Below the pieces are notes generated by a model. It was not told the DNA's origin, searched no databases, and saw only the letters and a program-made list of their open reading frames with translations. From positions 1 to 36,076 of the IMG/VR virus record IMGVR_UViG_3300032236_001771: a stretch of DNA of 36,076 bases; one strand, given 5' to 3'. The position numbers and the translations under genes are program-made. Origin of the DNA: a virus. Shown here piece by piece: positions 1,969-16,475 of the stretch (within the stretch, counting starts at the first letter, position 1; each line of letters begins with the position of its first letter).

Positions 1969-1993
1969 AAGGAGGTTAATAGCCTCCTTTTTT
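1969..1993 (+). terminator. intrinsic terminator
   Basis: AAGGAGG (1969-1975) pairs with CCTCCTT (1983-1989) around a seven-base loop that can also close by a T-G wobble; a run of T reaches 1993. It closes the P1/P2 small-gene unit before the late structural genes. Its GGAGG and CCTCC segments can also pair with similar segments further downstream. Confidence 0.85.
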
Positions 1994-2010
1994 AGTAATA
2001 AATAATTTAT

Positions 2011-2064
2011 GGAGATAGAAACCTCCTCTATAAAAGTTCTAATTTTATAGAGTTTTTTAGGAGG
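2011..2064 (+). promoter_or_regulatory. structured leader with sequesterable Shine-Dalgarno
   Basis: This leader precedes the 50-aa gene. It contains GGAG (2011-2014), CCTCC (2022-2026) and AGGAGG (2059-2064); the last is a full-strength Shine-Dalgarno five bases before ATG 2070. CCTCCT at 2022-2027 is complementary to that AGGAGG, so a long stem enclosing the 2026-2052 hairpin would hide the ribosome site. With GGAGG/CCTCC of the upstream terminator (1971-1987) there are five alternating segments able to form mutually exclusive pairs. A regulatory role is inference. Confidence 0.4.
2026..2058 (+). terminator. intrinsic terminator or attenuator
   Basis: CTCTATAAAA (2026-2035) is perfectly complementary to TTTTATAGAG (2043-2052) across a seven-base loop, followed directly by six T (2053-2058). 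It lies just upstream of the Shine-Dalgarno of the 50-aa gene, so transcription arriving from the left would end here, or be attenuated, before that gene. The stem is AT-rich and may be leaky. Confidence 0.6.
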
Positions 2065-2246: not shown

Positions 2247-2642
2247 ATGGCAATTGTATCAAAAACTTTTATAGATTTTGGATTGTCATTACAGAGAAAT
2301 CCATTTTCAAATGATTTACAAATAATAAAAAATGAAGTTGCAATTAAACAGTCTTTATTTACATTAATTAAGACAAGTATCTATGAAAGACCTTTTAATC
2401 CATTAATTGGTTCAAGATTGCATAAGTTATTATTTGAAAATTTTGATAGCGGAATTGGTTCTGATATTGAAGATGAGATAAAAATATTAGTATCAAATTA
2501 TGAACCAAGAGTTATAATTAATTCAATTGATAGTTCTGATGATAGTGATAATAATGCATTAAATATTACGATTAATTACAGTATTATTGGGCAACCATTA
2601 AACCCACAATCATTAAATGTACTTTTAGAAAGAAGCTTCTGA
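2247..2642 (+). CDS. 25: baseplate wedge subunit gp25
   Basis: At 131 residues this matches the length of T4 gp25 (132). It shows the gp25/GpW-like core: 'ERPFNPLIGSRLHKLLFEN' parallels T4 'SRPFDPEFGCDLSDQLFEN', and NYEPRV carries the conserved EPR motif of the sheath-nucleating core bundle. gp25 sits in the baseplate wedge between the central hub and the sheath, bundled with gp6, and provides the first strand to which the tail sheath attaches. The start is ATG 2247, preceded by TTAGGATAG; a short spacing makes the ribosome site modest. The late promoter TATAAATA lies 22 bases upstream. The stop TGA overlaps the ATG of gp6 by one base, so the two wedge proteins should be made in a coupled way. 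Confidence 0.95.
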   Translation: MAIVSKTFIDFGLSLQRNPFSNDLQIIKNEVAIKQSLFTLIKTSIYERPFNPLIGSRLHKLLFENFDSGIGSDIEDEIKILVSNYEPRVIINSIDSSDDSDNNALNITINYSIIGQPLNPQSLNVLLERSF

Positions 2643-4525
2643 TGGCCTTCAATCAATTAACCGCTTTAGATTTCAATGATATTAAGGCTTCTATTAGAGA
2701 TTATTTAAAATCTTCTGATATTTTCACGGATTATAATTTTGAAGGTTCTGCTTTATCAAATTTAGTTGATATTTTAGCTTATAATACTTATTATACTGCA
2801 TTTAATAGTAATTTAATTGTCAATGAAGCATATCTTGACAGTGCAATTTTGCGAGAAAACGTTGTAAGATTAGCAAAATTATTAAATTATACACCAAAAT
2901 CAGCTACAGCATCGCAAGCAATTGTTAATATTAGTGTACAATTACCAATAAGTAATAATTATCCTGATACTTTAACATTAAAAGCTGGAATTGTATTTAA
3001 TTCTTATAATGAAAATGGAAATTTTAATTTTTCAATTCCAAATGATGTTGTAGTTTCTGTAAATAAATCTACAGGAAGTGCTGTATTTTCAAATTTAGTA
3101 ATTTATGAAGGAAATTTAGTATCAACAAGATATACTGTAGATACAAGTTCGTTACAAAAGTATATTATTCCAAATTCAAATGTAGATACTAACACATTAT
3201 TTGTTAAAATATTTCCAAATCCCCAATCAAATACAGCAGATTTGTATTTAAAAGTTGATAATTTTTTAAATTTGACTAAAGATAGCAAAGTATATTTTTT
3301 ACAAGAAATAGAAGATCAAAAATACGAATTAATTTTTGGGGATAATGTATTTGGAAAACAATTAACAAACAATAATGTTATTCAAATGCAATTTATTGTA
3401 TGTAATGGAGCACTTGGAAATAATTGTAGTAATTTTAGTGGGAGTTTTATTGGAAAAATTGTTGATAATTTAAATAATAATATTATAAGTGGTATTAGTA
3501 TTACAAATATTCAACCATCTTTAGGCGGTGGAGATATTGAAAGTATAGATTCTATTAAATTTTATGCTCCAAGATATTTTCAAGCTCAAAGTAGGGCAGT
3601 AACTACAAAAGATTATGAAGCATTAATACCTTTAATTTATGCAAATGTAGATTCTGTTGCAATTTATGGTGGAGAAGATGATTTACCGCCACAATTTGGG
3701 GTAGTTAATTTAGTAATTAAACCAAAAGTTGGATTAAAATTATCAGATGCTGAAAAATTAAAATTAAAAAAGATTTTATCGGATTATTCTGTAGGTTCTA
3801 TTGTTCCACAAATAAAAGATCCATCTATTATTTACATTGGTGTTGATAGCACTGTTTATTATAATGGATTATTAACAACAAAAACACCAGATCAATTAAA
3901 AAATGATGTAATTTCTACAATTGTAAATTTAAATACAAGTAAAGATTTTAATAAATTTGGTGGCAAATTTAAATATAGTAAATTATTATCATTAATTGAT
4001 AATACAAATAATTCTATAACATCAAATATTACAAAAATAAAATTAAAAAAACTATTATTAGTTAATCCTAATATAACAACATCATATAGAACTTGTTTTT
4101 CAAATGCAATTGCAAATTTTACAGGAGCAAATTCTATATCAAGTAGTGGATTTAAATTATTAAATCAAGATCAAACAAAAATATTTTATTTTGAAGATGA
4201 TACTAAAGGAAAAATAAAAATATTTTGGTATGATCAACAAAATGTTAAAAATTATCTTCCAAATAATAATGTAAAAGGAAATTATGGATCAGTTAATTAT
4301 AGTACTGGTGAAGTCATTATAGATCCTATTGTTATCACTTCTGTTATAAATACCAACAGCACAGTTAGTTTATATGTAATACCTGATTCCAATGATGTTG
4401 TTTCTTTGAGAGATACATATTTAACTATTGATACTGACGGATTAAATATTTCTATTATAGAAGATTTAATTTCTGAAGGAAGAACATCCTCCGGTATAAG
4501 TGTAATTCCAGCTTCCAACTATTAA
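2642..4525 (+). CDS. 6: baseplate wedge subunit gp6
   Basis: The protein has 627 residues against 660 in T4. The N-terminus (LDFNDIKASIRDYLKSSDIF, then NLVDILAYNTYYTAFNSN, residues ~9-59) is the typical cyanophage gp6 opening. The block 'VTTKDYEALIPLIYANVDSV' followed by AIYGGEDDLPPQFG (residues ~320-355) is the baseplate-J-like signature. gp6 dimers, together with gp25 and gp7, form the continuous inner ring of the baseplate that opens on infection and triggers sheath contraction. The C-terminal ~150 residues are more divergent and beta-rich. Its start overlaps the gp25 stop by one base, and the next gene begins ten bases after its stop without a Shine-Dalgarno. No frameshift or truncation is visible. 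Confidence 0.95.
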   Translation: MAFNQLTALDFNDIKASIRDYLKSSDIFTDYNFEGSALSNLVDILAYNTYYTAFNSNLIVNEAYLDSAILRENVVRLAKLLNYTPKSATASQAIVNISVQLPISNNYPDTLTLKAGIVFNSYNENGNFNFSIPNDVVVSVNKSTGSAVFSNLVIYEGNLVSTRYTVDTSSLQKYIIPNSNVDTNTLFVKIFPNPQSNTADLYLKVDNFLNLTKDSKVYFLQEIEDQKYELIFGDNVFGKQLTNNNVIQMQFIVCNGALGNNCSNFSGSFIGKIVDNLNNNIISGISITNIQPSLGGGDIESIDSIKFYAPRYFQAQSRAVTTKDYEALIPLIYANVDSVAIYGGEDDLPPQFGVVNLVIKPKVGLKLSDAEKLKLKKILSDYSVGSIVPQIKDPSIIYIGVDSTVYYNGLLTTKTPDQLKNDVISTIVNLNTSKDFNKFGGKFKYSKLLSLIDNTNNSITSNITKIKLKKLLLVNPNITTSYRTCFSNAIANFTGANSISSSGFKLLNQDQTKIFYFEDDTKGKIKIFWYDQQNVKNYLPNNNVKGNYGSVNYSTGEVIIDPIVITSVINTNSTVSLYVIPDSNDVVSLRDTYLTIDTDGLNISIIEDLISEGRTSSGISVIPASNY

Positions 4526-4535
4526 TTACTAAAAA

Positions 4536-7500
4536 ATGTCAGATATCAACAGAATTCCATTAATTTTTGATAGTAACGCAAATATAATTGAAGAAATTCC
4601 TTTAGGGGATACTATTAAAAGTGATGTTATTCCTCAAGGAATTCCTTTAGATGGAAGTGTAAGTACAAGTAAAATTGCCAATGGAGTTAGTATTACCTTT
4701 GGTAATGGTACATCTGCTGTTCCATCTATTAGAATTGGTAGTGGAAATAGTATTGTTGGTGTATATAGTCCTGCTCCTGGAAATTTTGCTATTTCTACTG
4801 CTGGATATGAAAGATTTAGAATTGATGAAAACGGAAATATTACAGTAACAAATGGTGGGGCTTTACCCATCATGAATCCAGATTACAATAATAGTAAAGT
4901 TAATACATTATATGTTAATCAGGCAGATCAAAATGCAACAGATGATCCTACAAATGATGGTGGAAGATTAAATAAACCATTTAAAACTATTGAAAGAGCT
5001 TTACTTGAAGCTGCAAAAAGAAGTTATAAATCTGATGTAACTGCAGCCAGATTTGAAGCTTTTACAATTATGGTATTCCCTGGTGAATATGTTATTGACA
5101 ATAGGCCTGGTTTAGTAAGTTTAGATGGAATTGAAACTCAAAATACTTGGAATACTGAAGCATTAATTGAACAAAATATTTACAAATTTAATCCTCCAAC
5201 TGGTGGAGTTATTGTACCTAGAGGAACTTCAATTGTTGGTTATGATTTAAGAAAAACAGTTATTAGACCAAAATTTGTCCCTAATCCACAATATCCTTTT
5301 GGTGATAGTGCTTATGTTGAACCGTATGTTGTTAATGTTGCTGATTATTTAGAAACACAGCGAACAACTTTTCAAACCAGTGCTTATAACTATATTAAAA
5401 ATTTATATCCATCTATTACAAATATTAGTGATATTTGCAAAAGAGACATTGGATATATTGTTGATGCTATTGTTTCTGATTTAAGACAAGGTGGAAATAT
5501 TAATTCATATTCTGCTGGAGAAAGTTATATTTTTAATAGCGGGCTTAGATTTATTACCGGTCCAGATGAAAATACTGCTACTTTAGCTGCATTCAACAAA
5601 GTAAGAGATTTAATGTTGACGGCTATTGATGCTTGGAATAATATTAATAATATTAACATTACTCTTATTAATAATTTAAAGTCTAGAGTAAGTAATGAAT
5701 TATTTGCAGTATTAACAGGAATTATTAGTAATCCAAGTACTTATACTTCATTATATACTAAAATATTTGAAACTGGTAATCAAACTTCTATCTTTAAAGT
5801 TACTGGTGGATGTTATTTTTGGCAGATGACATTTAAAGATGCATTAATGTATAATAATGCTCCTGTCAATACTACTCCAGTATACAATTTTAGTTCTGGA
5901 GTATTTACTACAGATTCAAATGGAAATACTGTTTCTGCTGCAGATCAAGCGGCTTTTTCCCATCATAAAGTAGTATGTTTTTCATATGCTAATCAAACCA
6001 CAGGAACTGGTGGAGAACTTCAAACATATTATTCAAAAATTGATACTTTTGATACAACTATTGATGGTGGAGGATATAGAGAACCAAGACTTGAAGAATA
6101 TCAAATTGTTGGACCAGGAACATCTAGAACTACAATTGATACAGTAAATTCCGCATCTCCGTACATATTTAATAGTTCTTTAAGATCTATTTTTGGTCTT
6201 TGCGGAATGAATGCGGATGGTAATAAAGTTGATCCAACCAGTTTCAAATCAATGGTTGTTGCACAATTTACTGGCATTTCTTTGCAAAGAGATCCAAATG
6301 CATTTTGGCAACCAGCAACTGTAGATGGTGTTCCAACTAATACAACAAATCCAAGTAATTATCCAATTTATGCAGATCCAAATGCAGAATACAAAGTAAA
6401 ATATCGTCATTTCCATATTAAAGCGCAAAATGCAGCATATATTCAGGTTGTATCTGTATTTGCTGTAGGATACGCAGATCAATTTATTACAATTAATGGT
6501 GGTGATATGTCCATCACCAACTCTAACTCAAACTTTGGACAAATTGCATTAAGAGCTGCAGGTAATAGAGTTTCTGCATTTGATACATCAACGTATGGAA
6601 AAATAACGGCGCTAATTCCACCCAAAGGGATTTCTAATGTACCTACTTACACAGAATTTTATAGTATTGACGCTCCAACAACTTGGGCTAATAATAATCA
6701 AACTGGTAGTACTGGAAATCAATTTAGTCAAAATAATTTAAATAATTTTTTAAACGGAATTACAACATTTAAAATTTATCTTGATATTCCTAATATTAAT
6801 ACTTATAATGATATTCCAGAATTAATTGTAGAATCAACAGATTATTATACTGGAGTTATATCAAGAAAAAGATATTTAACCTATGGTGCTAATAATAATT
6901 TAAATCTTTTTAGAGATTACTATGGATTTACTGGAACTTATGATAAAAGCATTGCTATTGTTAATGCTAGTATAGAATCAACCGATGGGGGAACAAATAT
7001 ATATTCAACTCATATTAAATTAATTCCCGAAACTACCGAAGAACAAACAACAGTAAATTATAATTCTGAACGTCAAGGTTATTTTTGGGATGAAAAAAAT
7101 AAAAAAGTTTATATTAAAGTAAATGCAAGTTATTCTGATAGTCAATCATTTTTGAATAATTATATATTTAAAAATACTATATCATCAATATTTACTACTA
7201 CTCAAGTCACAAATCCAGATGGTTCTATTTCAATTGTAAGTGGTGCACAAAATGTTCAACTTCTTGATAATTTTACTGGGTTTCCAAGTAGTTTAACTGT
7301 TGGTTTAATTGTTGATAATAGATCTTCTTCTCCAAATGATTTATTATGGAGAGTTGAGTATAGAATACCTAAAGATAATTTAAAGGATTCAAATGGTAAT
7401 GATGTATTAGCTGTAAAGCCTCCAGAGAAAAGATTTATTATTAAAGGTACTGTTCCTGGATATACTAATAGATTATTTGAAATTTATGATGTACAAGAAG

Positions 7501-10500
7501 TAACTGCATGGCAAAAAGGTGTACGTGATGGTATCTACTATTTAACTATTATTCGTGCAGATATTGATAATTTTATTGATGGCAATGCTGGAAGTTATTT
7601 TAATAATCAATTACAAATAACTAGAGGGGGAGCTGGTACTGGTGAAACTTATAATAGCTTAAGTTCATTATATGGAAGTTCAACTTATGGATATGGTGTT
7701 AATGCTGGTTTAAATTATAGGGTAACTTCTAACATAAATTACTTATATCCTTCCGTAATAGAAGATGTTACTACAGGTTTTGCACCTCTTGTGTGGAATC
7801 CTCCAATTACAGATTCTCGTGCTTTAGTTGAACCTGTTATTGGAACAGGAACTTCTGGATATAGAGTAAAAGATTTATCAGTGCCAAACAAAAGATATTA
7901 TAAATCGGTTGATAAAGTTATTAAAAATATTGTTTATAGAAATCCAGAAAATAAAGCAATTCCTATTACACAAATTTATTATGATAATACATCTGGATTA
8001 TTACGAGTTACTACAGGAGCTACAACAAATTTCCAAGCTGGAGATTATATTAATATATTTGGGACAACATCTGGAACAGTAGGCACCGCTAGAGTTGAGG
8101 GAGCAAGTTATATTAATTCTATTGGTTCTGGTACTACTTTTTATACTAATCCACAAGGAGGTATTGTTGGAACTGGAATTACAGTAAATGTTGGTTTAGG
8201 TAATACTGGATATGTTTATAATTATGCTGCAGATGTTTACGTAGATTCAGTAAATGGATTGTATGAAAGTGGATTTGTATTAATATCTAATAATTTTAAT
8301 ACAAATATTAACGGTACATATAGGAATTATAACATAAGCACCGGAACTACTTCATTTAGAATTGTTGCTCCATATGGTTCTGGAGTATCTGTTGCGCCAG
8401 CAAATCCTAATTATGGAGTAGTTTCTAGAACACCTTTTGCAGATATTCCATCTTTATATTCAATAACTGCAGAATCAGTTCAAAATTTGGCAGTAGCATT
8501 AAATCTTAAAAATGTGTATCAAGGTTATGATCCTAATTTAGGTTCATATAGTCAAAATTATTTACAAGTAAATGCCGATACTATAGATGTTGCTCCCCGT
8601 GTTTTTTGGGATGCAAGAAATAGTTATAATTCTATTGCATATCCATTTAATTATTATGGTAGAGTAAGATATGGTGATGGTAATGCTTTTAGTACTAATT
8701 CTGATAATACTTATGGTTTAAATTTAGCTGAAGCTGATAGAAAAATTTTATGTGTAAGTTCTGGTAGCACTTTTAATTTAAATGCAACAGCATCTGATTT
8801 AATTAATTATGCTCCTACAGTTCCATTGTATAGACCTTCTATTATTAGAGCATCTTCTCATACTTGGGAATATGTTGGTTTAGGTGCTGGTAATTATTCA
8901 ACGGGATTCCCTGTTGTACAAACTAGAGTATTAAAAGCATACGAACAATATATTGCTCAAGGATATGAAAACTCTGGAGGATTTATTGCTTCTTCGGGTA
9001 CAAATTCTTCTGGTGATTTTTATATTGGAAATCAAATTATTCAAGCTGGCGGACAATCAACAGTAACTCTTAATGTTCCAAAAATAAGAAAATCGTCTGA
9101 ATCAAATTATCTTGATGTTTCAAATATTGAAAATAGAATTTCCAACTCAGTACTTAATATAACATCATTTAATTTAAAAAATTCTTCCGCACAATCAACA
9201 TTAAAAGGATTATCCAATTTCTTTAATACTGCAAAATTAAGTGTATCTGATAAAGCAAATATCCAATCATTAACTGTTGCGGGAAATTTCACAATTTCCA
9301 ATAATGCAATTAGTAATGGTATTAATTTCCCGCAAGGTGATGTGTATGGGTATGGATTTGCAAAAGCAGCTAAACCAGAAAAAACTGGATATTTATCAAC
9401 AGATACTAATGATAAATTATATGTTTCTCCAAAATTTTTAGATGCTTGGAGAGTAAAACGACAACTTGTTTCTACATCAAATATACAATTAGATAACAAC
9501 AGAATTTATGTTCAATCACTTTCTAGCACTGTCCTTGATGGTTCTAATATTGATGGTACTTCAACAACATCAGCAATTGCAATTAGTACAGGTTCTTCTT
9601 ATATTAGGGTAAAAGAAAGCAATGGATTACCTTCTTATGGTTCTATTGATGTTGAAATGAATTTATATAATGTAGAATTTTATGATAAAGATTTAGCTGG
9701 ATATAAATTTAATCCAAAAATTTATATTACTTTACAATATGATTCAATAGATTATAGTAATAATACTTTACATTTAAGTCCATATCAAAACAAATACCCA
9801 TTAGCAACATATTTAACTGATATTATTGGTACTGGAAATACTTATTCAACTATTATTAAAGATGTTCCATCACCATTGGCAAATATCAATAATATGAGTG
9901 AAATTGATCCAAAGTATATTTATAGTAAATTAACACAAAATTTTGTTGCTCAAAATATATCTACTGGATCTACTTCAATTTATATTCCTACTAATGACTA
10001 TACAAAATTTCCAGACAGAGGAACTGTAATTTTACGTGAAGTTAATGGTACAATTACAAATCCATCATTAAAATATAGTACTTATGTTTATTATAAAGGA
10101 ACAAATTTAAATGAATTAAAACTTATTAGAAGATTGCCATCTTCAAGTAGTAATGATATCAATAGTATTTCAAATGTGGGAGCTACATTTAGTACTGGAT
10201 ATACTAATGCCACTGGTACTGGAACATCTAATAATGTATTTTTTGGTGGATGTACTACTAGTGTTTATGTGTCTGATAGATGGGCATATGAATCTCCATT
10301 TTTACCTTATGCTGAAAATGTTTCAGAAGATGTTGATTTAGAAAGTGCCACTTTATATAAATTACCTCAAAAAACAATTCCTTATACTGGATCAATAGAT
10401 TCTAATTATACAAATAATAAAGTACCAAACCCATATAATTCAAAAGCATTAGGAGTTAATTTACAAAATAGAAATGCAGTAAAAACATTCCAACCTTTAT

Positions 10501-13500
10501 CAAATTTAGAACAAGCTGCAAGTTGGGCAAATCAAAATTTTGGAGCCACTGATAGTATTGAATTATTAATTAAACCTGGATATTATAGAATTAATGGAGC
10601 AAACTTTGTACCTTCTGTTAAAATTAATGGTAGTGGCGTAAGTAGAACTGGTGGATATTCTGGAAAAGAAATTACATCTGTAAGTGCAGGAAATATTGGT
10701 GGATATTTAAATACTGATGTTAATAGACGAGATAGTGTTTATTTCTTTAGATCTCCAGTAATTGGAACTAATTATGGTTGGAGAAGTAATAATTTCTATT
10801 TGTATAGTGGTTCTTCATATACTTTTAAAAATGGATTTGATTTAAATAATATTCATTTTCTTGGTTTAAGTGAAGCCATATTAGAAAATGAAATTTTAGA
10901 TTCATCTTATTCTGATGATACTACTATAAATGCTGCAAGAAAATTAGTTAGAAGAGCTTATGGTGTTAAAAAAGCAACAAATTATCCAGTAATAGATACT
11001 GGTGTTTTTGGAGGATTAAGTTTTAATATTCAAACTGGAATTTCAATTGGTACTGGAACTACTTCCATTGGTAAAATGGAATATTATGTTAATGATTCAA
11101 CTGTTATTGATAATAGTGGAGCAGTAGTTTCTGCAGGAAATACCACATGTAGATATGTTAAATTTACATTACATTCCAGAGATTTTAATAATATTAGTGG
11201 ATCTCCAACACCAAAACAAAAATATATTTGGGCTAAAAATTATATTATTCCAGGAACAACTTTATATTTTTCTTCTGGAAATAGTGCTGTAACTGGAACT
11301 ACACCAAAAACAAAAATATTAGATGTTAATATTAAAAATCCAGACGTTACTGCTCCATCATTAACATCAAATGAAAGTATTGAGTTTTATTGTGCAGTAT
11401 ATAATAGCACAAATACAAAATCCAATAATATTGAAGATTTAGTTATTTCAGATTATATTGATGGAACAACTGCTACAATTGTTATTTTAAATGCAAATAA
11501 TGATGAGTTTAATTCTTTAGTTTATAATTACCTATCTCTTTATAGAAAAGGATATTTGGCTAAAGGTTTTGCTACTTCTGGAGGATTTAATGTTGCAAGT
11601 AAATTAGATAATTTTGGGAATACAATAACTCAATATGATACACCAAGAATTGTTGGAGTTATACCTGGATATTATGCAGGTACTATTCAATTAGTAATTG
11701 ATTCAAATCCAACTTCAGACAATATAGATCCGACTACGATATTGACTGCTTTTGCTCCAGATTATTGGAGTCATCAATCCATATTATTACCATATACATC
11801 TGATGCAACTGAAGATTTTTCAGTCAATTTAAATTATTTTCCAAATGGTCCTCTAAGTTATAATGTTTATTATGATCCAAGATATTACATTTTACAAATA
11901 ACACCATCTTATACAACTACAGGTGTTGAAAATGATGGAATTTCTTCTACAATATTAAATAAATTTGTAAATTTCACATCAACATCATTAGTTGATAATG
12001 GTGCTAATATTAAATCTAAAAATGATTATGTTGTTGCAGCTAAATCTAATTTAAATGCAGCAAATTGCCCATATAAACTTCCAGCATCATATAAAACATT
12101 AACCGGAACTATCACATACAATGCATCAACTCGTGTTGTAACTGGTACTGGAACTTCATTTATAACAGAAATTCAAATTGGTGACGCAATTTATTCTGGA
12201 GCAACTGGAAGTGGAGGATTAATTGGTATTGTATCATCAATTAATGCTGGTACAGGACTTAGCGTTGCTAATAATAGTTTAGCATATGGAACAAATCTTT
12301 CATCCACTGCTTTTAGTAAAGATATAAACAATACAGGAAAACCGGTATTTATAAATTATCCATATAATTATAGAAGATTACTTAAGAGATTTTCTGCGGT
12401 AACAGATCAAGCATTAGGTCTTATGGGAACTACTATGATTAATGCTCCTGGAGTAACAGGATCTAAAATTACAACTAATTTATCTAATGTAACATTAGGA
12501 GCACAATCTCCTAGTTCTTCTCTGTATTCATATTTTGGAGGAGGTTATGGTGGAGCTTTAATTAATCTTAGTGGATCTAATTTGACTTTAAATGGATTAA
12601 GAATAAGAGGAAATAATTATATAAATTATAATTCTTTATTTGCATTAGGAAATACAACTAGAGCAAAAAATAATTATCATTATGGAAATAATCCAGACTT
12701 GTTTCAATTTGAACAAACCAATACTATTGCAAGTATCGGACAATTTGGATCTGCTTCTATTTTACCATTAAGTAAATCTGATGAACAATATAAGTATTTA
12801 AGCGAATATCGTTCAAATTATTTAAATTATTTAGAACCAAAATATAATTTAAACAGTAATCCTGTTGATTATGATCAAAGAGTATTTCCCGTTTCTTGTT
12901 ATGCTTCAGTTAAAAGATTTGCTACTAATGGAAGTTTAAATACAAATCTTTCTATTACAGAAAAATATATTACCCCAAATACTATAACTGCTGCTAGTAG
13001 TACAAATGCAACAAATTCAGGTTGGGATTTAAAAATCAGTACTGGATCTAGCATAATTAATGGAGATGCTGATGGAAATTTGCTTCCACAGTATTCATTA
13101 TCTTTCCACTATACCGATTCAAGTATACTTGAAAATGTATTTACTGGTCAATATGCAACTAAAATTGTTAATCCAAATAATTTTAGTACTACTTATGCAA
13201 TTGTAACTGGAGTTATTCAAAATACAAATCCAATTGGCAGTGGAGTTACAAATACTGCTAGAATAACATATTCTGGTTCTATTCCAAATAATACTGATAT
13301 TAAATTTTTAACAACATATATTTCTTCTGAAAAATATAATTATGTTACTACAACAACTTCAAGATATCAAAAAAATGTTTTTAATGGTCAATCGCATTTA
13401 TATTTAAATACTGGATATGCTTTATCTGCTGATATAGTAATTAGTGGAACTGGAACCACATCATTTGCAAGACAATTGGTTGTATTTAATAATGCAACAA

Positions 13501-16475
13501 ATCCTTCTGCTCCACAATTTAAAGCTTATGTTGAAACAGATGCATTTGGTCAAATTACATCATTAGATCCAACAGATTTTGGAACAGGAACATTAAGTTC
13601 TGTTTTTGGTGATATTTTAGTTCCATCTATTGGAACTGGATTATCTGGATTTACTTTTACCGTCCAAAGAAATTTAAATGAAGACATAACAGTTTTCAAT
13701 CCTGGCGAATATATTGCTGCACCACCAGCAAATTGTTTTATACTTAACAACATTCCATCATTATCTCCTTTAGATATTAAACTTTCTTTACAACAAGTTA
13801 AAGAAATTATTAAACCGTATAATTATATTAATTATAATGGAATAAACTATAAAATTGCAAAAAATAGCACAAATAAATCTTATATTGGTGTTTATAAATA
13901 TGCAAATCCGAATAATTTAAATGACATTAGAGTTGCTATAGTAGTTAGATTAGATGATCCAATTCAAACTCCAACATATGGAGCAAATACTAGATTTGAT
14001 ATATTTAATGTGGATAATATTTTTGATTATTGGCCAAAATCAGGTAAGTTATTAATTTCAAATAATGAATTATGTGATTTCACTATAACTGGAAACAACT
14101 ATGATCAAAATGGATATTCTTTAAACTTGACTAGAAGTATGACAAAATACTTCCCTTCTTATATTAGAGATTGGCAAGGATTAGATCCAAGTTCTAATGT
14201 CATTACTACAAATCTTCTTACTAGCACTTCTTTTAAAATTACTCCACAAACAACTACAGAAAACTTTACTGCTTTAACATTTACGTTAAGCGATCCAATT
14301 GATGTTAGTTGTATGGGATTAAGAAGAGTATATGGTTCGCCTACTTCTACTGGCTTAGGAACAACTTCTTTAGGTACAGGAATTACTTGTTTAACTCCAA
14401 CTGGCAGATATACTAATACATTAAGAACTATTTCTATACCATCTTCTAATTTAACTGAAGATTTTGAAAAATATTCAACCGGCAACATAATCACTTTACC
14501 TTATAGAGACATTAGTGTTAATAATTGGAATTCCGCAGTATTTACTGTTGATTCTGGTTCAGGAACAGCAGGAACTCCATATTCTTCAAATAAAGCTGGA
14601 GATTTATTAATTACTGGTTCTATTACTACATCAACACCTCTTTCTTGGTCAGATCCAAATCAAAAATTCCATGTTGTTCCATCTAGTGCAACTAATTACG
14701 ATATTTACAATAATGTAAATGCAATTTCTCTTGTTGGATTTTCTAACTTTAGAACTTCAATTTCTGGTACTACATCAGCTCAATTAACTTTAACAAACGC
14801 ATTATTATCAACAATTTCTTCTGGAACTACTTTTATGTTAGTTCCCCAATTTAAAACTATTGAAGGAACAAATCCAGTAAAATTATTTAAATCTAGAATT
14901 ATTGATAGAATTAAAGATGTAACAAATAATGTAATTACTTTGATATTATCAGATCCTGCTCCAGATACATTTGTTGGCAATGAATCTAATGTAAGACATT
15001 ATGGATTTATTACTTTAAATGAAGCAAGTTGGACATATCCAAAAGTTGGTGGAAGTGCATTAAGACCAAATAATGCAAATCCAGGAACTACAGCAACAAA
15101 TATATATTTGCCAAATAATAGTGGTAATATAAAAGTAGGAGATCATATTACATATACTTATGATGGAGGATCTTGTTCTGCATATATTACTTCTATTGGA
15201 ACGCTTACAAATAATTATTGTTTATGTGAATTAAATGTAGTTAGTGGAACTCATATAATTTACAATGGTTATTCAACTATAAGTCTTTGGTCTTCTTTGT
15301 CGGATATAACTATCAAACATGTATCAAATGGATTTGTGAAAGATGGTCCAGCTTTTAATAAGATATTTACATCAACCACTGGATTTAATTTATCTTTTAA
15401 TTCTTATTCCGTTTGGTATGAGGCATATAGTAATTACATTTCTGCATATAACGGAATTACTGCAAGACAAGGATTTGTTGGTAATTTTGCAGTTAATCAA
15501 AATGACTCTAAAGCTTTGGGTCTTGATGTACAAAGTTTTAGTGGTGTAACATGGGGGGCTCAATACAATACTGGAATATGGACTGTTGCTACTCCATTTC
15601 TTCCATCTTGGGCATCAACTGCTTTATCTGTAAATACGATTGAACTTGATCAAAGAACAAATTATGATAACAATTTTATTGATAGTTATAACAAAAATCC
15701 AGCTTATACTTCTAGTGATCTTTCTGGAGGATATGCACCACTTAATCCATTAGTGCATACTGGATTAACAACAACAAATTTATATGCGTCATTAAATACT
15801 AGTAATGCTGATGCTGGTGGTATTGGTGCATACGATACTGTAAATTATAAATTCTACAGTTCACCTACTTTATCATTTGGTGTGTATGGAACTTCTTTAA
15901 CTGAAATAATGTCAACCAATAGTTATTCTAACTATAAACCAACATTAGATTTTAATTCTAATGCTAATAGTACATCAAAATCTATAACTCTTGGAGATAC
16001 TACTGTTACTGGATTCTATGCTGGTGATGTACTATATTCTTCATCTAAATCTTATATTGGTACAGTTGGAAGTGACGGAACAACTTTTGTAATTCCTGCT
16101 CAAGCTTCTTCTGGTGGAACTGTTTTATCAATTTCACCAAGATATGTTAAAGCAATAACTATTAATAGTTCTGTTGCTTCTGGTTCTGTTGGTCCAAATG
16201 TAATGGGAAATGCAAATCCAAATTATGATAATTATAATTTAAGTTTTAATTTAAATTCAAGAACTTATAATAGTTCTATCATGCTAAATACTACTGGACA
16301 ATTGGCTGCTACTACAACTACAGATAATGGATATCAATCAGTAAGCATTTTTTCTGGTGATTTAATGCAATATACTTCATCAATTTTAAATGTAGTAGCA
16401 TCTAAAATTAATCCAAAAGTTCATACATCAAAAACATTTACAGTTTCCACACCAGGATATTCTATTAACATATAA
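4536..16475 (+). CDS. giant beta-helix virion structural protein, 3979 aa
   Basis: This is an uninterrupted frame of 3979 codons between gp6 and the 108-aa protein. Residues ~62-103 carry a tail-fibre motif (VGVYSPAPGNFAISTAGYER, then FRIDENGNI). NKPFKTIERALLEAAKRS (~146-163) and MVFPGEYVI open a right-handed beta-helix of the pectate-lyase type. Residues ~301-320 hold the cyanophage block CKRDIGYIVDAIVSDLR. Further blocks typical of cyanophage structural proteins are FKSMVVAQFTGISLQRDPN and QVVSVFAVGYADQFITINGG with MSITNSNSNFG (~570-670). A second helix-like opening, SIELLIKPGYYRING, lies near 2010-2025. The protein is rich in Asn, Ser, Thr, Tyr and Gly, with many GTGTS-type links, and has no membrane segment or visible catalytic site. 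It most likely forms the outer baseplate or a fibre contacting the cell surface. Counterparts in cyanophages are sometimes called VrlC-like; I cannot confirm that here. Confidence 0.85.
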   Translation: MSDINRIPLIFDSNANIIEEIPLGDTIKSDVIPQGIPLDGSVSTSKIANGVSITFGNGTSAVPSIRIGSGNSIVGVYSPAPGNFAISTAGYERFRIDENGNITVTNGGALPIMNPDYNNSKVNTLYVNQADQNATDDPTNDGGRLNKPFKTIERALLEAAKRSYKSDVTAARFEAFTIMVFPGEYVIDNRPGLVSLDGIETQNTWNTEALIEQNIYKFNPPTGGVIVPRGTSIVGYDLRKTVIRPKFVPNPQYPFGDSAYVEPYVVNVADYLETQRTTFQTSAYNYIKNLYPSITNISDICKRDIGYIVDAIVSDLRQGGNINSYSAGESYIFNSGLRFITGPDENTATLAAFNKVRDLMLTAIDAWNNINNINITLINNLKSRVSNELFAVLTGIISNPSTYTSLYTKIFETGNQTSIFKVTGGCYFWQMTFKDALMYNNAPVNTTPVYNFSSGVFTTDSNGNTVSAADQAAFSHHKVVCFSYANQTTGTGGELQTYYSKIDTFDTTIDGGGYREPRLEEYQIVGPGTSRTTIDTVNSASPYIFNSSLRSIFGLCGMNADGNKVDPTSFKSMVVAQFTGISLQRDPNAFWQPATVDGVPTNTTNPSNYPIYADPNAEYKVKYRHFHIKAQNAAYIQVVSVFAVGYADQFITINGGDMSITNSNSNFGQIALRAAGNRVSAFDTSTYGKITALIPPKGISNVPTYTEFYSIDAPTTWANNNQTGSTGNQFSQNNLNNFLNGITTFKIYLDIPNINTYNDIPELIVESTDYYTGVISRKRYLTYGANNNLNLFRDYYGFTGTYDKSIAIVNASIESTDGGTNIYSTHIKLIPETTEEQTTVNYNSERQGYFWDEKNKKVYIKVNASYSDSQSFLNNYIFKNTISSIFTTTQVTNPDGSISIVSGAQNVQLLDNFTGFPSSLTVGLIVDNRSSSPNDLLWRVEYRIPKDNLKDSNGNDVLAVKPPEKRFIIKGTVPGYTNRLFEIYDVQEVTAWQKGVRDGIYYLTIIRADIDNFIDGNAGSYFNNQLQITRGGAGTGETYNSLSSLYGSSTYGYGVNAGLNYRVTSNINYLYPSVIEDVTTGFAPLVWNPPITDSRALVEPVIGTGTSGYRVKDLSVPNKRYYKSVDKVIKNIVYRNPENKAIPITQIYYDNTSGLLRVTTGATTNFQAGDYINIFGTTSGTVGTARVEGASYINSIGSGTTFYTNPQGGIVGTGITVNVGLGNTGYVYNYAADVYVDSVNGLYESGFVLISNNFNTNINGTYRNYNISTGTTSFRIVAPYGSGVSVAPANPNYGVVSRTPFADIPSLYSITAESVQNLAVALNLKNVYQGYDPNLGSYSQNYLQVNADTIDVAPRVFWDARNSYNSIAYPFNYYGRVRYGDGNAFSTNSDNTYGLNLAEADRKILCVSSGSTFNLNATASDLINYAPTVPLYRPSIIRASSHTWEYVGLGAGNYSTGFPVVQTRVLKAYEQYIAQGYENSGGFIASSGTNSSGDFYIGNQIIQAGGQSTVTLNVPKIRKSSESNYLDVSNIENRISNSVLNITSFNLKNSSAQSTLKGLSNFFNTAKLSVSDKANIQSLTVAGNFTISNNAISNGINFPQGDVYGYGFAKAAKPEKTGYLSTDTNDKLYVSPKFLDAWRVKRQLVSTSNIQLDNNRIYVQSLSSTVLDGSNIDGTSTTSAIAISTGSSYIRVKESNGLPSYGSIDVEMNLYNVEFYDKDLAGYKFNPKIYITLQYDSIDYSNNTLHLSPYQNKYPLATYLTDIIGTGNTYSTIIKDVPSPLANINNMSEIDPKYIYSKLTQNFVAQNISTGSTSIYIPTNDYTKFPDRGTVILREVNGTITNPSLKYSTYVYYKGTNLNELKLIRRLPSSSSNDINSISNVGATFSTGYTNATGTGTSNNVFFGGCTTSVYVSDRWAYESPFLPYAENVSEDVDLESATLYKLPQKTIPYTGSIDSNYTNNKVPNPYNSKALGVNLQNRNAVKTFQPLSNLEQAASWANQNFGATDSIELLIKPGYYRINGANFVPSVKINGSGVSRTGGYSGKEITSVSAGNIGGYLNTDVNRRDSVYFFRSPVIGTNYGWRSNNFYLYSGSSYTFKNGFDLNNIHFLGLSEAILENEILDSSYSDDTTINAARKLVRRAYGVKKATNYPVIDTGVFGGLSFNIQTGISIGTGTTSIGKMEYYVNDSTVIDNSGAVVSAGNTTCRYVKFTLHSRDFNNISGSPTPKQKYIWAKNYIIPGTTLYFSSGNSAVTGTTPKTKILDVNIKNPDVTAPSLTSNESIEFYCAVYNSTNTKSNNIEDLVISDYIDGTTATIVILNANNDEFNSLVYNYLSLYRKGYLAKGFATSGGFNVASKLDNFGNTITQYDTPRIVGVIPGYYAGTIQLVIDSNPTSDNIDPTTILTAFAPDYWSHQSILLPYTSDATEDFSVNLNYFPNGPLSYNVYYDPRYYILQITPSYTTTGVENDGISSTILNKFVNFTSTSLVDNGANIKSKNDYVVAAKSNLNAANCPYKLPASYKTLTGTITYNASTRVVTGTGTSFITEIQIGDAIYSGATGSGGLIGIVSSINAGTGLSVANNSLAYGTNLSSTAFSKDINNTGKPVFINYPYNYRRLLKRFSAVTDQALGLMGTTMINAPGVTGSKITTNLSNVTLGAQSPSSSLYSYFGGGYGGALINLSGSNLTLNGLRIRGNNYINYNSLFALGNTTRAKNNYHYGNNPDLFQFEQTNTIASIGQFGSASILPLSKSDEQYKYLSEYRSNYLNYLEPKYNLNSNPVDYDQRVFPVSCYASVKRFATNGSLNTNLSITEKYITPNTITAASSTNATNSGWDLKISTGSSIINGDADGNLLPQYSLSFHYTDSSILENVFTGQYATKIVNPNNFSTTYAIVTGVIQNTNPIGSGVTNTARITYSGSIPNNTDIKFLTTYISSEKYNYVTTTTSRYQKNVFNGQSHLYLNTGYALSADIVISGTGTTSFARQLVVFNNATNPSAPQFKAYVETDAFGQITSLDPTDFGTGTLSSVFGDILVPSIGTGLSGFTFTVQRNLNEDITVFNPGEYIAAPPANCFILNNIPSLSPLDIKLSLQQVKEIIKPYNYINYNGINYKIAKNSTNKSYIGVYKYANPNNLNDIRVAIVVRLDDPIQTPTYGANTRFDIFNVDNIFDYWPKSGKLLISNNELCDFTITGNNYDQNGYSLNLTRSMTKYFPSYIRDWQGLDPSSNVITTNLLTSTSFKITPQTTTENFTALTFTLSDPIDVSCMGLRRVYGSPTSTGLGTTSLGTGITCLTPTGRYTNTLRTISIPSSNLTEDFEKYSTGNIITLPYRDISVNNWNSAVFTVDSGSGTAGTPYSSNKAGDLLITGSITTSTPLSWSDPNQKFHVVPSSATNYDIYNNVNAISLVGFSNFRTSISGTTSAQLTLTNALLSTISSGTTFMLVPQFKTIEGTNPVKLFKSRIIDRIKDVTNNVITLILSDPAPDTFVGNESNVRHYGFITLNEASWTYPKVGGSALRPNNANPGTTATNIYLPNNSGNIKVGDHITYTYDGGSCSAYITSIGTLTNNYCLCELNVVSGTHIIYNGYSTISLWSSLSDITIKHVSNGFVKDGPAFNKIFTSTTGFNLSFNSYSVWYEAYSNYISAYNGITARQGFVGNFAVNQNDSKALGLDVQSFSGVTWGAQYNTGIWTVATPFLPSWASTALSVNTIELDQRTNYDNNFIDSYNKNPAYTSSDLSGGYAPLNPLVHTGLTTTNLYASLNTSNADAGGIGAYDTVNYKFYSSPTLSFGVYGTSLTEIMSTNSYSNYKPTLDFNSNANSTSKSITLGDTTVTGFYAGDVLYSSSKSYIGTVGSDGTTFVIPAQASSGGTVLSISPRYVKAITINSSVASGSVGPNVMGNANPNYDNYNLSFNLNSRTYNSSIMLNTTGQLAATTTTDNGYQSVSIFSGDLMQYTSSILNVVASKINPKVHTSKTFTVSTPGYSINI

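Follow-up and report, generated by a model that had tools for sequence, protein, structure and literature searches.

The DNA just upstream of a 50-aa gene in this virus raises the question of whether five complementary segments, alternating between GGAGG and CCTCC, act together as one RNA switch, as an earlier note on the sequence had proposed. We addressed this question in a window of 36,076 nt (28% GC), which is part of a 135,187-base virus record and in which the baseplate genes gp25 and gp6, identified with PHROGs models, are of the T4-type cyanophage kind. All features given below lie on the + strand. The segments are found exactly where they had been reported, namely GGAGG at 1971–1975, CCTCC at 1983–1987, GGAG at 2011–2014, CCTCC at 2022–2026 and AGGAGG at 2059–2064, with the ATG at 2070. 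On its + strand, the window holds this ordered chain once (1971–2064); the chain was not found on the opposite strand of the window, and appeared in none of 300 first-order Markov simulations of a 28% GC window. The five segments exist and would hardly arise by chance, but they are divided between two different things.

Upstream of the chain lies a 46-aa gene belonging to PHROG 516, whose function is unassigned (1823–1963; E = 6.6e-20), preceded by a match to the sigma-70-type promoter TTGACA-17-TATAAT at 1767–1795 (12 of 12 positions, a consensus match only). The 50-aa gene under the proposed control belongs to the PHROG 1414 family (2070–2222; E = 2.1e-10) and is followed by genes for a gp25-like baseplate wedge protein (2247–2642; phrog_261, E = 1.3e-44) and a gp6-like baseplate wedge protein (2642–4525; phrog_219, E = 3.2e-186). 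We also observed that a single 3979-aa open frame occupies 4536–16475 after gp6, where related cyanophages have a gp7-type baseplate gene, and that a stretch which by eye seems GC-richer (430–1320, with reading frames at 540–893 and 945–1199) adjoins AT-rich repeats at about 60–420; this stretch is possibly acquired DNA or an assembly junction.

Segments 1 and 2 fall within a GC-rich hairpin followed by a T run at 1969–1995, a predicted intrinsic terminator. The fold of 1965–1996 had an energy of −11.3 kcal/mol (z = −3.24), which 1 of 200 shuffled sequences equaled, and from the sequence we take the two segments to be the ordinary terminator of the upstream PHROG 516 gene. The earlier note had treated this pairing as a terminator within the switch; the terminator stands, whereas its membership of the switch does not, because a late-promoter match, AATAAATA at 1997–2004, separates segments 1 and 2 from the rest. 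The motif NATAAATA is a late promoter described for cyanophages in PMC2984593. At 1997–2004 it lies shortly upstream of the predicted start, as in T4-type late promoters. That start, if T4 spacing applies as we presume, falls at about 2010–2011, where segment 3 begins. Within the window, ATAAATA occurs on the + strand at 1998, 2219, 16807, 24937, 33209 and 33218, each time 20–70 nt upstream of a gene start, while two more + strand matches are intragenic. Counting both strands, the late motif is rarer in the window than expected (17 occurrences vs. a chance mean of 52.4), so the argument drawn from it is one of placement, not of number.

One of these matches, TATAAATA at 2218–2225, stands directly in front of gp25. 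Since gp25 has a late-promoter match of its own, read-through into the late operon need not cross the leader, and the suggestion that the segments control such read-through is not supported. The same match bears on the possibility of a transcriptional attenuator, in which either the terminator at 1969–1995 or an alternative AU-rich hairpin at 2026–2058 would be switched to govern entry into the late operon. Both T-tailed hairpins do exist in the window phage, and the second is present as had been described, with arms CTCTATAAAA (2026–2035) and TTTTATAGAG (2043–2052) followed by T6 (2053–2058). However, this second hairpin was not seen in the relatives' leaders inspected, and a late promoter is predicted between the first terminator and the leader, which together with the separate promoter of gp25 makes an attenuator very improbable in our judgment.

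In contrast to segments 1 and 2, segments 3–5 lie in what sequence comparison indicates to be a conserved leader element of a late mRNA (2011–2069). Over about 27–34 nt, the element comprises, in order, a stem (P1), the loop AUAG(N)AAC, the returning P1 strand, a linker and AAAAGUUCU; this conserved core (AUAG(N)AAC ... AAAAGUUCU), along with the likely pseudoknot that it forms, had been overlooked in the earlier note. To gather relatives independently of the motif, we used gp25, gp6 and the 50-aa protein as queries and collected loci with similar proteins. Of 188 loci fetched, gp25 was located in 187, of which 11 were dropped with too short an upstream sequence, leaving 176 usable. The strict motif, ATAG(N)AACC-n-AAAAGTTCT, was present in 150 of these 176. 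The other 26 consisted of five with a GUUUCU variant, one with an N in the motif, two that were cut short and 18 without the element, including those of P-HM2 and S-SSM7. Two of these 18 (L282 and L298) have a PHROG 1414-like reading frame although the element is absent, and we conclude from this and from its absence in 18 of 176 loci that the element is dispensable.

A motif scan of IMG/VR returned at least 120 stretches, and gp25 lay downstream in 127 of 138 motif matches, among the matches listed. A covariance model found a single strong copy in each of 11 records out of 13, P-HM2 and S-SSM7 having no copy, and likewise in 23 of 39 IMG/VR records, 16 of which had been picked for lacking the motif. 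In the window's own record, the model found no second copy, the next best match being at chance level, and the weak matches (16–20 bits) that appeared as second copies in the same genomes looked like chance upon inspection. Published isolates carrying the element are Syn9, S-P4, S-CAM9, ACG-2014a and S-SRM01. It seems to be an undescribed RNA control element of T4-like cyanobacterial viruses, kept across hundreds of sequences.

We then considered which gene the element accompanies. Among 303 places with at least 900 nt downstream, a PHROG 1414-type gene follows the element in 301 and gp25 in 299; these places, like the 319 matches behind them, include repeats owing to contigs that were retrieved twice. 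Where gp25 is missing, in four places (L051, L381, L382 and L384), the small PHROG 1414-type gene is still present, matching PHROG 1414 in L382 with E = 2e-15, and the element therefore travels with the small gene. As a separate observation, in these four places the element and the PHROG 1414 gene precede a PhoH-like gene in place of gp25, a gene that was checked against Pfam in L382.

P1 is a 4-bp stem closing the loop AUAG(N)AAC. In the window, its 5′ strand is GGAG of segment 3 (2011–2014), loop 1 is AU (2015–2016) and its 3′ strand is CUCC from segment 4 (2023–2026). Among 132 distinct leaders taken without any filter for the stem, pairs 2, 3 and 4 were intact in all 132; pair 3 was GC in 80, AU in 49, CG in two and UA in one, with none broken, and pair 1 took five pairing types and was broken in one leader. 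In 71 distinct cores, 98.4% of P1 cells were paired vs. 88.9% in shuffles, and the covariation score was 0.266 vs. 0.067 in shuffles, with 0 of 500 shuffles as high in either case; sliding the structure along the cores lowered the paired share to 28–61%. The number of P1 pair types in these cores was not above that of shuffles (365/500), and pairs changed on both sides were only slightly above (5/500). A FastTree phylogeny of gp25 with 244 rows implies a minimum of 27 changes at pair 3. Three or more P1 pairs had been required of both the 71 cores and the rows of this tree, but not of the 132 leaders. Judged by these compensatory changes, P1 is a real stem. Such changes in homologues were the outcome on which the earlier note had staked its reading, and in P1 they are there.

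The second helix, P2, would join the loop to the end of the element. Once N is bulged out, GUUCU is the complement of the loop sequence AG(N)AAC, in which N may be C, A, G, U or absent; in the window, the putative strands are AG(A)AAC (2017–2022, with 2019 bulged) and GUUCU (2036–2040), separated from P1 by a linker that ends in AAAA (loop 3, 2027–2035). Pairing of these strands as an H-type pseudoknot is likely from the sequences, with weaker support than for P1. P2 is nearly invariant, and its covariation consequently rests on one length change in few lineages; in addition, for most of the element set the search pattern itself demanded GUUCU. The length change was seen in five anchored loci of the B23 group, in which the partner is GUUUCU and N is A. 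Scanning for AGAAAC with GUUUCU yielded 23 stretches, 19 of them with gp25 and a PHROG 1414-type gene, and with two loop types. The counter-scan for GUUUCU with N other than A yielded four stretches, three with G (two being identical leaders), which can wobble-pair with the extra U, and one with C, which cannot. A purine at N, able to pair with the extra U, accompanied GUUUCU in 12 of 13 distinct elements vs. 54 of 222 with GUUCU, counts that ignore descent. The two scans were asymmetric, as the AGAAAC/GUUUCU scan took any loop 1 and the counter-scan took AU only; restricted to elements in which loop 1 is AU, the figures were 4 of 5 vs. 53 of 189 (Fisher p = 0.027, likewise ignoring descent).

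Conservation at the level of DNA or of an encoded peptide was considered and rejected: following open frames 60 nt upstream in promoter-less leaders, we found that the element is readable in differing frames (RDSNPVKSS vs. GIATP*). Because the frames differ among leaders and the stem covaries, conservation at the RNA level is the better reading. A host origin was likewise rejected. A genome scan returned 11 matches, of which five were near gp25, one was short with a stem (L318) and five were stemless and chance-like, and no cellular copy was seen among these 11 with that pattern. Several cyanophage-like contigs (L314, L316–L319 and L322) sit inside bacterial or archaeal MAGs, such as those of Lokiarchaeota, Woesearchaeota and Chlamydiae, and are likely binning errors.

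We next turned to folds that would compete with the pseudoknot for the ribosome site. In the window, the Shine-Dalgarno sequence AGGAGG is segment 5 (2059–2064). Duplex prediction and folding of 2022–2066 pair an anti-Shine-Dalgarno strand at 2024–2029 with 2060–2065, and duplex prediction pairs AAAAGUUCU at 2032–2040 with 2049–2057. The fold of 2022–2066 had an energy of −13.9 kcal/mol (z = −2.74; 2 of 200 shuffles as good). Longer stretches were less exceptional (z = −1.50 for 2009–2075, −2.23 for 1965–2080 and −0.77 for 1990–2100), and energy by itself therefore makes a weak case, the strong evidence being that of comparison.

The leader set for this comparison left out 11 of 280 motif matches, which had fewer than three P1 pairs, and one leader that lacked a start codon. 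A perfect stem of at least 5 bp across the GUUCU end was present in 181 of 202 leaders vs. 7.0% of shuffled leaders, and in 85 of 90 leaders from anchored loci. In 146 of the 181, the outer strand of this junction stem contains the Shine-Dalgarno sequence AGGA. Its second inner pair, across 172 distinct leaders, was AT in 92, TA in 76, GT in two and CG in two. A different masking arrangement, a strong duplex (at most −9.5 kcal/mol) between the 3′ half of the element and the region upstream of the start codon, was predicted in 15 of 202 leaders; the window's own duplex reached −13.3 kcal/mol, and the clearest was that of S-CAM9, at −20.8 kcal/mol. A swap test over all 202 leaders was negative, in that a leader's own pairing was better than swapped pairings in only 69, and we therefore treat this second type as a minority feature, the window included. 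Pseudoknot and masking stem are mutually exclusive by virtue of their common bases, and both types of masking fold would exclude the predicted pseudoknot. In keeping with the earlier note, pairings 3–4 and 4–5 cannot coexist: the former is P1, with its compensatory changes, and the latter, which is the masking fold predicted for the window, has a counterpart in a minority of relatives. Regarded as a pair of exclusive folds, the system shows compensatory changes in P1 and in the masking stem, and limited support for P2.

Taken together, comparison of the sequences establishes that the element exists, is conserved, occurs singly per genome and is linked to one gene family, and it establishes both P1 and the downstream stem. 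We infer from these the pseudoknot P2, the assignment of ON and OFF states, and some factor that chooses between the folds. According to the model that we propose, 2011–2069 would be the leader of a late mRNA for the PHROG 1414 gene, in which the loop may pair with the downstream GUUCU over the A-rich linker to give a compact H-type pseudoknot in which P2 stacks coaxially on P1. This pseudoknot's strands would be reused in a second, incompatible fold: in most relatives, UUCU and the bases that follow may fold back into a hairpin ending in the Shine-Dalgarno AGGA, while in a minority, including the window phage, the P1 3′ strand and AAAAGUUCU may pair with the ribosome-site region. With the pseudoknot formed, the ribosome site would be free (ON), and with the hairpin formed, it would be masked (OFF); the choice might be made by a phage or host protein, by a metabolite, or by when, in the course of transcription, the RNA folds. 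The best reading is a translational switch acting on the small PHROG 1414 gene, one that we consider reasonably probable, since P1 has compensatory changes and a counterpart of the 4–5 pairing recurs in a minority of relatives. Of the two kinds of control named in the earlier note, the translational one is supported; the relatives give no support for a transcriptional attenuator.

We modeled the effect of the two states on the ribosome site using an energy model without pseudoknots. Of the 202 leaders, 13 without a recognizable Shine-Dalgarno sequence were dropped; in the remaining 189, the ribosome site was unpaired with a mean probability of 0.27 when free and 0.75 under a pseudoknot-compatible constraint, with an increase in 172; part of this rise follows from the constraint itself, which rules out the OFF partners. 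The window itself behaved in the opposite way, its ribosome site going from 0.47 unpaired when free to 0.19 when constrained, and thus not being exposed in the model. Without P2, the ON state lay a median of 6.2 kcal/mol above the best fold, a cost that would have to be met by P2, by a bound factor or by co-transcriptional folding.

The position of late promoters relative to P1 bears on two further explanations. A match to (H)TAAATA ends 3–8 nt upstream of P1 in 100 of 203 leaders, with a peak spacing of 6–7 nt, and the remaining 103 have no late-promoter match within 14 nt of P1 and would be reached by read-through. HTAAATA was found within 45 nt upstream of the loop in 71 of 132 leaders vs. 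86 of 2640 random windows. In PMC3014915, T4 genes e, soc, 49 and I-TevI are described as having their Shine-Dalgarno sequence in a hairpin near late promoters. A plain masking hairpin of the gene e or soc type, with the site hidden on a long early read-through RNA and free on a late RNA that starts inside the structure, would draw on this precedent and on the 103 leaders open to read-through. Like the element, these T4 hairpins hide the Shine-Dalgarno sequence; unlike it, they have no conserved pseudoknot core, and the invariant core of the element would be left unexplained. Moreover, the late start of T4 gene e removes the 5′ strand of the hairpin, whereas in element leaders the start predicted from the promoter match coincides with P1 or slightly precedes it and thus lies ahead of the OFF stem's 5′ strand; late transcripts would accordingly keep the masking hairpin. 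We consider this explanation improbable. Slightly more doubtful still is a role in 5′-end protection, in which a pseudoknot at the start of the late mRNA would shield it from pyrophosphohydrolase and 5′-dependent nucleases; the promoter spacing in the 100 leaders places the predicted start on P1 as this would require, but the other 103 lack such a promoter, and protection has no need for a competing stem.

The single copy per genome and the tie to one gene family are also what one would expect of a protein operator, with the pseudoknot as the site at which a phage or host protein represses or activates PHROG 1414 translation, as gp32 does on its own T4 mRNA, and with the hairpins only tuning basal initiation. 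The precedent is the T4 gene 32 leader, where a pseudoknot is thought to control translation, and for which no competing Shine-Dalgarno stem is described in the available sections of PMC3014915. Like the pseudoknot predicted for the element, it is of the H type and stands in an mRNA leader of a T4-type phage, but that of gene 32 serves a different gene and has a greater distance to its start codon (67 nt in T4); the gene next to the element is of the PHROG 1414 type, not gene 32, in the 301 of 303 places noted above. Against an operator, the PHROG 1414 protein has no known RNA-binding domain, its C end is acidic-rich by eye and its structure model is of low confidence; a binding site alone would also leave the near-universal junction stem unexplained. 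We regard a protein operator as possible, albeit unlikely.

To place the translational switch among known RNAs, we searched Rfam. The window had no match at gathering thresholds, the short stretches tried around the element matched no riboswitch at E values up to 10, and no known riboswitch class of Rfam 15 matched at its curated cut-off. By sequence comparison, the nearest known RNA appears to be GP20-b (RF03003), a candidate cis-regulatory RNA, which is not the same family. GP20-b sits before gp20. Its 3′ half, GGuGAagGCaACCaCCUAAAAAAG, resembles the element in having a 4-bp stem, an 8-nt loop ending in AAC and an A-rich tail. The GP20-b model aligned to the L010 element with 20.5 bits (E = 0.0054 in a 51-nt search), the best score obtained and below the curated cut-off of 36.2 bits, and with 14.7 bits over the full model. 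No record exceeded the cut-off (0 of 13 and 0 of 39); sub-cut-off matches occurred in 3 of 52 records (1 of 13 and 2 of 39), all overlapping the element, and at 13–15 bits the model also matched HTVC008M at a place with no such element (15 bits) and control genomes. GP20-b has an upstream hairpin; this 5′ hairpin aligned weakly, with a large insertion, and half of the element leaders have a promoter there instead. The two RNAs differ in the end of the tail, which is GCgUA in GP20-b and GUUCU in the element. Three matches from a pattern scan for true GP20-b members were all judged to be chance. As modeled, the element is also like preQ1-I riboswitches, which are small H-type pseudoknots with an A-rich third loop and competing ribosome-site or terminator folds, although loop length and conserved bases differ. 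More speculatively, the element could be a new class of ligand-responsive riboswitch in lytic cyanophages, timing the translation of one late gene, with a minimal pseudoknot core partly common to GP20-b and both belonging to a superfamily of pseudoknot switches in phages that respond to some signal from the infected photosynthetic cell; this we think rather unlikely, a shade more so than a protein operator. In the literature on cyanophage riboswitches, pseudoknots, late promoters and leaders that is accessible without subscription, the element was not described.

The PHROG 1414 protein returned no known function or RNA-binding domain from PHROGs models and further searches, and its predicted structure had a pTM of 0.29. 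We observed that the N end of these proteins (PVDR..YM..MWGT..LITDY) is common to them and that the C end comes in at least two interchangeable forms, DDYDDWEYGTEP and RPCGG.GFDDYVERWHE. Few viruses on Earth are as abundant as cyanophages, and RNA control in them is described as little known (PMC9964418). The element is found in most sampled loci and in published isolates, with no Rfam family above threshold. A second cyanophage RNA element, unrelated to the known one and containing its own competing fold, could be tested with phage-host pairs kept in the laboratory, and it would offer a first handle on the widespread PHROG 1414 gene.
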